Source of the DNA: Candidatus Elulimicrobium sp.
GTDB lineage: Bacteria; Patescibacteriota; Minisyncoccia; Phycocordibacterales; UBA918
Length of the DNA: 44,799 bases
Direction of reading: 5' to 3'
Assembly (NCBI GenBank): GCA_022730015.1
Contig: DZBU01000002.1
Location: 23,043 to 67,841 of the forward strand
Part shown: positions 29,018 through 30,456 of the stretch, piece after piece
How the letters are laid out: each line of letters starts with the position of its first letter
Position numbering within the stretch: position 1 is the first letter of the stretch
Program-made: the position numbers and the translations under genes
Notes under the pieces: generated by a model
Database searches by the model: none
The model's input: only the letters and a program-made list of their open reading frames with translations
What the model was told of the DNA's origin: nothing

Positions 29018-29073
29018 TAGACTTACTAAGATTAGTGGGGTATTAACCCCTCTCAGTAGGTCTCTCTAGACTG

Positions 29074-29145
29074 TGCCCCCGCGAGGAATCGAACCTCGAA
29101 TAACGGCTTAGAAGTCCGCAGTTATATCCATTTAACTACAGGGGC
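29074..29145 (-). tRNA. tRNA-Arg(TCT)
   Basis: GCCCCTGTAGTTAAATGGATATAACTGCGGACTTCTAAGCCGTTATTCGAGGTTCGATTCCTCGCGGGGGCA; anticodon loop CTTCTAA. Confidence 0.9.
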
Positions 29146-29229
29146 AAGGGAGGAATAATGTGGAAACTTGCTTACATATTAGTTCCGAACGCCGACTCTG
29201 GTATGTATTTTCATACAGGGGCAAGTAAG

Positions 29230-29262
29230 AAAGTAAAAAGAAAGTTTTTTTCTTTTTACTTT
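29230..29262. repeat. 14-bp perfect A/T-rich hairpin
   Basis: aaagtaaaaagaaa-gtttt-tttctttttacttt. Confidence 0.6.
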
Positions 29263-29373
29263 GAGGACAAATCACGCAAATTTTATTTGCTAGATAACCA
29301 TAGCAGAAATTCCGCATTGAGAAAACTCCTCAGGTGTCATCGTTTTGATTCTTGGTCTGAGAGAGAAAAGAAA

Positions 29374-29399
29374 ATCCTCGACCAAAAAATGTCGAGGAT
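29374..29399 (-). terminator. Terminator of the lipoprotein gene
   Basis: minus strand atcctcgac-attttttg-gtcgaggat followed by tttcttttc. Confidence 0.7.
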
Positions 29400-29423
29400 G
29401 AGAGTGGCTGATTCGACTGAAGT

Positions 29424-30098
29424 TCAATCGAAGAGACCTTTGACTTTTTGTGCAAAACTAGGGTTACTGGTTTTGCTCGTGTCAGCTTGGTTGGCAAGCT
29501 TGCTCTCCTTGAGGTCATCGACAATGGCTTTTGCTAATGCTTCTGCTACCTGTCGCTCAGTGGGGGTCTCTGGACTATTGGCTTTGCCGATGAGGGTGGC
29601 TGTCTGCCGATAAAGGACCTCACCTTTTTTTGAGACCATCGTCACCGCCGCTGATCCATAAATGATCTTGACGGTGAGTCCGCCTCTGGCAGTTTTACCT
29701 CCAGTATCGATCATCAAGAAAGCATCGTATCCACCTTGGCGGGCCATACTGGCCGCGCTTGCGGTACTGATAGGTGCCTTCTTAACGAGCTTTACATGAC
29801 TGAAAAGTTCCTTCTCATTTTGTAAGTACTCATGAGAGTAGAGATTGTCAGTCATGATCGTTTTTATCGTGGGGAGGTCTGAGCTCAGTACACCACCACC
29901 TGGTTTTGCGAGTTCCACCTTCGCTCCACCGGGTAGAAACTGAGAACCCACGATAGCTGCAGGAATGAGTTGCGCCGCATATAGAGCTCCTATTGGTATT
30001 GCAGTGCAACCAGAAAGTTGTGTTGTACCGAAGGCAACCGCCGTCAGTACCACGATTGGGCCAGAGATTTTTTTAAAGAACGAATTGAAGTAATGCAT
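29424..30098 (-). CDS. Predicted lipoprotein of unknown function
   Basis: N-terminal signal with lipobox-like LSGC; strong SD AGGAG 7 nt before ATG; own terminator. Confidence 0.75.
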   Translation of the reverse strand: MHYFNSFFKKISGPIVVLTAVAFGTTQLSGCTAIPIGALYAAQLIPAAIVGSQFLPGGAKVELAKPGGGVLSSDLPTIKTIMTDNLYSHEYLQNEKELFSHVKLVKKAPISTASAASMARQGGYDAFLMIDTGGKTARGGLTVKIIYGSAAVTMVSKKGEVLYRQTATLIGKANSPETPTERQVAEALAKAIVDDLKESKLANQADTSKTSNPSFAQKVKGLFD

Positions 30099-30102
30099 GT
30101 TA

Positions 30103-30164
30103 CTTCTCCTGTAAAATGAAGGGAAATGTCAGGCGGATGCCTGACCATCATTTAACAGGAGAAG
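30103..30164 (-). promoter_or_regulatory. 5'UTR hairpin sequestering the Shine-Dalgarno of the lipoprotein gene
   Basis: cttctcctgtaaaatga (30103-30119) vs tcatttaacaggagaag (30148-30164), 16/17 paired, with inner 7-bp hairpin gtcaggc-ggat-gcctgac. Confidence 0.75.
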
Positions 30165-30228
30165 AAACTTTTGTCAATATCAGTGGTTTATTTTGGTTTC
30201 AGGTCTATCCAGAAGCAAAGCGGTTTGC

Positions 30229-30291
30229 TCTCTCATCGCGCACAAATGAAAAACCCGCAAAGCGGGTTTTTCATTTGTGCGCGATGAGAGA
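30229..30291. repeat. 30-bp perfect inverted repeat (3-nt loop) overlapping the 3' end of tRNA-Val
   Basis: tctctcatcgcgcacaaatgaaaaacccgc-aaa-gcgggtttttcatttgtgcgcgatgagaga. Confidence 0.9.
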
Positions 30292-30350
30292 CTTGAACTC
30301 CCGACCTTCTCGGTGTAAACGAGCTGCTCTACCAACTGAGCTAATCGCGC
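30278..30350 (-). tRNA. tRNA-Val(TAC)
   Basis: GCGCGATTAGCTCAGTTGGTAGAGCAGCTCGTTTACACCGAGAAGGTCGGGAGTTCAAGTCTCTCATCGCGCA; anticodon loop TTTACAC. Confidence 0.93.
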
Positions 30351-30456
30351 ATGTATTTATTCGCACTATCGTACCTAATTTTTGAGAAAAGACAAGCGTT
30401 ATGTCTCGTTTGTAATCATTCGTACAGACTGTGCAGACAGGGTATACTGCAAGATC

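Follow-up and report, generated by a model that had tools for sequence, protein, structure and literature searches.

An inverted repeat over the candidate promoter and ribosome-binding site of a lipoprotein gene in Candidatus Elulimicrobium may at most silence read-through RNA

Does the strong inverted repeat that precedes a putative lipoprotein gene of Candidatus Elulimicrobium sp. regulate the translation of this gene, and does it belong to the gene's own messenger RNA (mRNA)? The gene lies on the minus strand of a stretch of 44,799 nucleotides (nt) of assembly GCA_022730015.1 (contig DZBU01000002.1, positions 23,043 to 67,841; hereafter, the window), and its Shine-Dalgarno sequence (SD) is contained in one arm of the repeat. 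An initial annotation described this arrangement as an SD-sequestering hairpin in the 5′ untranslated region (5′ UTR), a candidate RNA thermometer or translational switch. Our analysis favors, at about even confidence, a different reading: the repeat spans both the promoter and the ribosome-binding site (RBS), the distal arm being most likely promoter DNA, and it would at most silence RNA reading through from upstream, without acting as a thermometer or a riboswitch. The features on which this reading is based are the following:

29424–30098, minus strand: putative lipoprotein gene (224 aa, lipobox LSGC), supported by the list of open reading frames (ORFs), codon usage, and a homologue in genome G499
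30099–30119, minus strand: proximal arm of the repeat, containing the SD AGGAG (30106–30110)
30128–30145, minus strand: apical 7-bp hairpin (GTCAGGC-ATCC-GCCTGAC), inside which a transcription start is predicted (around 30141–30144)
30148–30168, minus strand: distal (anti-SD) arm, overlapping the spacer of the candidate promoter and its −10-like TTAAAT
30150–30177, minus strand: promoter-like pair TTGACA (30172–30177), N16, TTAAAT (30150–30155), in register with the leader of the G499 homologue

Sequence inspection and folding both confirmed an SD-covering stem on the minus strand at the annotated place. The annotated stem of 17 bp with a single mismatch (CTTCTCCTGTTAAATGA / TCATTTTACAGGAGAAG, minus strand) was slightly longer than claimed and extends to 21 positions, 30148–30168 pairing with 30099–30119 through 19 Watson-Crick pairs and two T·T mismatches, and the second 7-bp hairpin was indeed present at its apex. 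The SD is located 7 nt from the ATG (at 30098), which the proximal arm abuts. The minimum free energy of the leader was −35.5 kcal/mol, versus a mean of −14.5 kcal/mol (standard deviation 2.9) for shuffled sequences (z = −7.35), and none of the 200 shuffles was equally stable. When full leaders were folded, this SD was the least accessible among the 154 genes with an SD-like motif in the 294 kb of stretches on which the genome background was measured. As annotated, no other gene of the window combines such an SD with a matching anti-SD, and among 969 ORFs from six genomes (about 1.09 Mb), this was the only genuine leader with its SD in a strong inverted-repeat arm; the sole other match overlaps a hairpin directly 3′ of tRNA-Ser, which is most likely the tRNA-Ser terminator. 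Within the genus, an exact copy of the apical hairpin motif was found at this leader only, with one-mismatch matches in three genomes. Rfam gave no match to the hairpin at the gathering score, the weak E-value matches being microRNA models, and no 16S rRNA was found in a search of the assembly. A terminator or an attenuator was also considered and rejected, since the apical hairpin lacks a proper U-tract.

The location of the transcription start was then approached by comparison with the single homologue, which came from an order-level search (E = 2.7e-10; 27% identity over 195 columns by BLASTP). In a gap-free, ATG-anchored alignment of the two leaders, 21 of the 90 positions matched, which is the chance level, save for the runs TTGACA and TTAAAT. 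These are the only in-register 6-mer runs common to both leaders, and they are placed 79 nt from the ATG in both. Among 25,878 unrelated leader pairs of this genome, seven shared two runs of at least six nt anywhere, and none shared them at this spacing. These results argue strongly, but not conclusively, that the shared TTGACA-N16-TTAAAT is a promoter with a start at around 30141–30144, within the loop. A start at this position implies that the mRNA of the gene lacks the distal arm. Moreover, the SD of the G499 leader is free, with no comparable stem. Both observations run counter to a switch located in the gene's own mRNA. A transcription start site (TSS) downstream of the distal arm had been named in the initial annotation as the finding that would speak against its proposal, and the start predicted from the promoter-like pair, as opposed to a mapped one, lies there.

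The effect of the stem on the ribosome site was computed for different starts. At 37 °C, opening of the RBS required 19–23 kcal/mol for transcripts starting at 30172 or further upstream, but 8.1–9.0 kcal/mol for starts at 30141–30150 and 9.7 kcal/mol for a start at 30138, whereas the genome median was 8.8–9.3 kcal/mol and the value for G499 was 8.5 kcal/mol. The stem thus closes the RBS when both arms are present, and an mRNA lacking the distal arm is predicted to have an opening cost that is ordinary for this genome. The annotated dependence of ribosome access on opening of the stem consequently holds for RNA carrying both arms, but not for the gene's own transcript, if its start is where the promoter-like pair places it.

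According to the reading that we favor, the own transcript would start between the arms, at around 30141–30144, and, lacking the distal arm, would be translated normally. Both arms would occur together only in RNA reading through from tRNA-Val, past the tRNA-Val terminator, and in such RNA, whose existence we infer, the stem would close the RBS and block translation. The upstream source and the barrier are listed here:

30277–30350, minus strand: tRNA-Val(TAC), co-directional upstream gene and possible source of read-through, with a promoter score of 12.1
30229–30291, minus strand: 30-bp perfect palindrome made of the tRNA-Val 3′ end, the terminator, and the inverted copy of this 3′ end, a barrier to read-through

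The native promoter of tRNA-Val is a good one, and the terminator stands behind the tRNA gene. The same promoter-in-repeat layout has been proposed for the large hairpin of sigG in Bacillus subtilis (PMC5942855), in which a stem of 20-odd bp also closes the RBS in read-through transcripts, while the gene's own promoter and start are found inside the repeat and its own mRNA lacks the stem. However, for sigG the start has been mapped and spoIIG is a known source of read-through, whereas both are deduced for the lipoprotein gene, whose upstream neighbor is a tRNA gene with a terminator. A related layout is documented for the T4 genes e, soc, 49, and I-TevI, and the longer early transcripts of e and I-TevI are untranslated (PMC3014915); these phage genes use timed early and late promoters, but no such timing is known for the lipoprotein gene.

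Several points weigh against this reading. The promoter-like pair scored low in the promoter models learned from this genome, which prefer an extended −10 of the TGCTACACT type, and its −10 element is weak (TTAAAT at N16 or TAAATG at N17). When the range from the tRNA-Val terminator to the gene was searched with a two-block model, the best site was found upstream of the stem (−10 at around 30219, −35 TGCGCG, 8.6 bits); 14% of shuffled leaders outscored it, but if used, this candidate site would yield the full leader, and this is the main reason why our confidence goes no higher than even. The start site is derived from the sequence pair, and the promoter likeness depends on one homologue and was spotted first and tested afterwards. 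Finally, the tRNA-Val terminator may leave little read-through.

The upstream candidate site speaks in favor of a translational switch in the main mRNA, in which transcription would start upstream of 30168 and the locked RBS would be opened by a protein, a small RNA, or an RNase. The complete pairing of the SD in the full leader and the lack of a strong native promoter near the loop are also consistent with such a switch, which we nevertheless consider unlikely: the homologue has no stem, the conserved promoter-like pair places the predicted start within the loop, 19–23 kcal/mol would have to be paid for opening, and no related leader was found in the 49 genomes of the family. Still less probable in our opinion is a main transcript that comprises the full leader and whose stem, too strong for melting, requires a dedicated trans-acting factor or RNase for its opening; if true, the lipoprotein gene would be tightly locked by a control of unknown type in a small-genome bacterium. 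The repeat covers the promoter-like pair, as would be expected of a DNA operator whose arms bind a transcriptional repressor over the promoter. This is highly improbable, however, given that the arm sequence recurs nowhere else in the 294 kb (up to 1–2 mismatches), that the arms are 28 bp apart with neither being itself symmetric, and that G499 does not share them. As for an RNA thermometer opened by heat, the leader resembles the ROSE and fourU elements in that the SD is paired within a 5′ UTR hairpin, but it is set apart by the excessive stability of its stem, which has none of the weak pairs needed for melting. With both arms present, the in silico probability of the SD being unpaired was 0.000 at 37 °C and 0.007 at 70 °C, and its pairing exceeded 99% over the range of 10–70 °C, so that the thermometer proposed in the initial annotation is hardly tenable.

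It is also possible, although in our opinion less likely than the favored reading, that the repeat is an accident without effect, which arose by template switching during replication, is absent from the mRNA, and regulates nothing, read-through being negligible. Template switching is known to make and mend hairpins (PMC8794818), and the repeat resembles template-switch hairpins, including the quasipalindromes of Escherichia coli (PMC7202029), in its long near-perfect arms and in the excess of such repeats in this genome. Eighteen long-loop inverted repeats (score of at least 14) were counted in the 294 kb, versus 0.2 expected, and seven of them were flagged inside ORFs; a genome-wide excess that includes ORFs is what template switching would lead one to expect, although some of the 18 repeats are associated with tRNA genes (e.g., L065 9081–9167), which reduces the purely mutational background. 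The arms of one coding-region repeat (L065 18314–18405) are perfect in this genome and imperfect in genome G026, from which the 30-bp palindrome neighboring the lipoprotein leader is absent. Random placement of repeats of these sizes covered an SD in 24–33% of trials, and hence a single repeat over an SD needs no selection. In contrast, the extent of the arm, which includes the entire RBS and stops precisely at the ATG, argues against an accident. If the promoter is the older element, template switching may have copied the promoter spacer into the SD arm; speculatively, an RBS would then have been written by a mutation process.

The near-perfect inverted repeats that are in excess in this genome have loops of 10–60 nt and were observed in L062, L064, L065, L067, L069, L071, and L075, several of them in coding regions. 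An intergenic 21-bp inverted repeat with a 5-nt loop (L063 16774–16820) contains TTGACA in both orientations.

The gene itself is almost an orphan, as judged from homology searches. Apart from the G499 protein, no protein homologue was found in 49 family genomes, 380 phylum genomes, genome contigs, viral contigs, plasmids, or phages, and profile searches with both proteins returned nothing further. The other weak matches whose loci were read (L124, L126, L127, and L129) proved to be at other genes. The codon usage of the ORF matches the genome norm and the other frames score low, indicating that it is coding, and its 224-aa product reads as a lipoprotein from its lipobox. Searches of Pfam, NCBIfam, and PDB with this protein gave no usable match, and the AlphaFold model (mean predicted local distance difference test, pLDDT, of 36.5) was too poor for the Foldseek list to be informative. 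The leader was equally isolated: a DNA search across the genus returned chance-level pieces only, and a covariance model of the hairpin found no related leader in the 49 family genomes, its only match being an intergenic hairpin at an unrelated place in G037. The comparison of leaders in relatives, which had been suggested as a check for covariation in the stem, thus spoke against the initial proposal, albeit weakly, as it came down to a single homologue without a stem. The tRNA gene neighboring this homologue is divergent, and the absence of a stem where the tRNA is divergent, seen in this one case, is only suggestive.

The lipoprotein gene stands alone between tRNA-Val and tRNA-Arg (29073–29145), in agreement with the initial annotation. 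The interval between the two tRNA genes (window 29073–30350 and L055–L061) is variable; G026, G040, and G029 have a short one, in G019, G033, and G012 it contains cargo unrelated to that of the window, and the lipoprotein gene was found in no near relative. A plus-strand ORF of 89 aa (30116–30385) is antisense to tRNA-Val (DLNSRPSRCKRAALPTELIA) and is of a type that is frequently annotated in error.

In parallel, we observed, behind the tRNA-Val gene and its terminator, a copy of the tRNA 3′ end in inverted orientation (window 30196–30291). In a sample of the genus, the 160 nt downstream of a tRNA gene contained an inverted copy of the 3′ end of that gene, exact over at least 10 nt, in 26 of 83 cases, whereas none was found in shuffled or in upstream sequence and nine at 559 coding-sequence ends. 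The copies, found in the window, L093, L097, L098, L104, L121, L091, and other loci, sit behind the terminator, span the acceptor and the T-arm, ending at the T-loop, and are frequently split by a hairpin inserted between these two parts. Two motifs recur, A (TACTG-stem-TGTAA-stem) and B (GTACTTAG-hairpin-CTTAGTAAC), with 18 copies in the genus sample (e.g., L090 14470, L098 13132 in minus-strand count, L105, L106, L121, and L122), 13 of which are located within 400 nt downstream of a tRNA gene; none was found in shuffled sequence. Some inverted copies are followed by motif A or B and a direct copy of the tRNA 3′ end, and type A often runs straight into the direct copy. Rfam gave no match in one example region. 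Altogether, these features resemble a structured or mobile element associated with tRNA genes. The hairpin of the lipoprotein leader was considered as a part of it and rejected, since the two motifs are absent from the window.

The lipoprotein-leader hairpin may be of less interest than the inverted tRNA 3′-end copies that this genus carries behind many of its tRNA genes. As for the hairpin, if the reading that we favor is correct, this locus would illustrate that an apparent thermometer or translational switch can be a promoter-spanning repeat that is absent from the gene's own mRNA.
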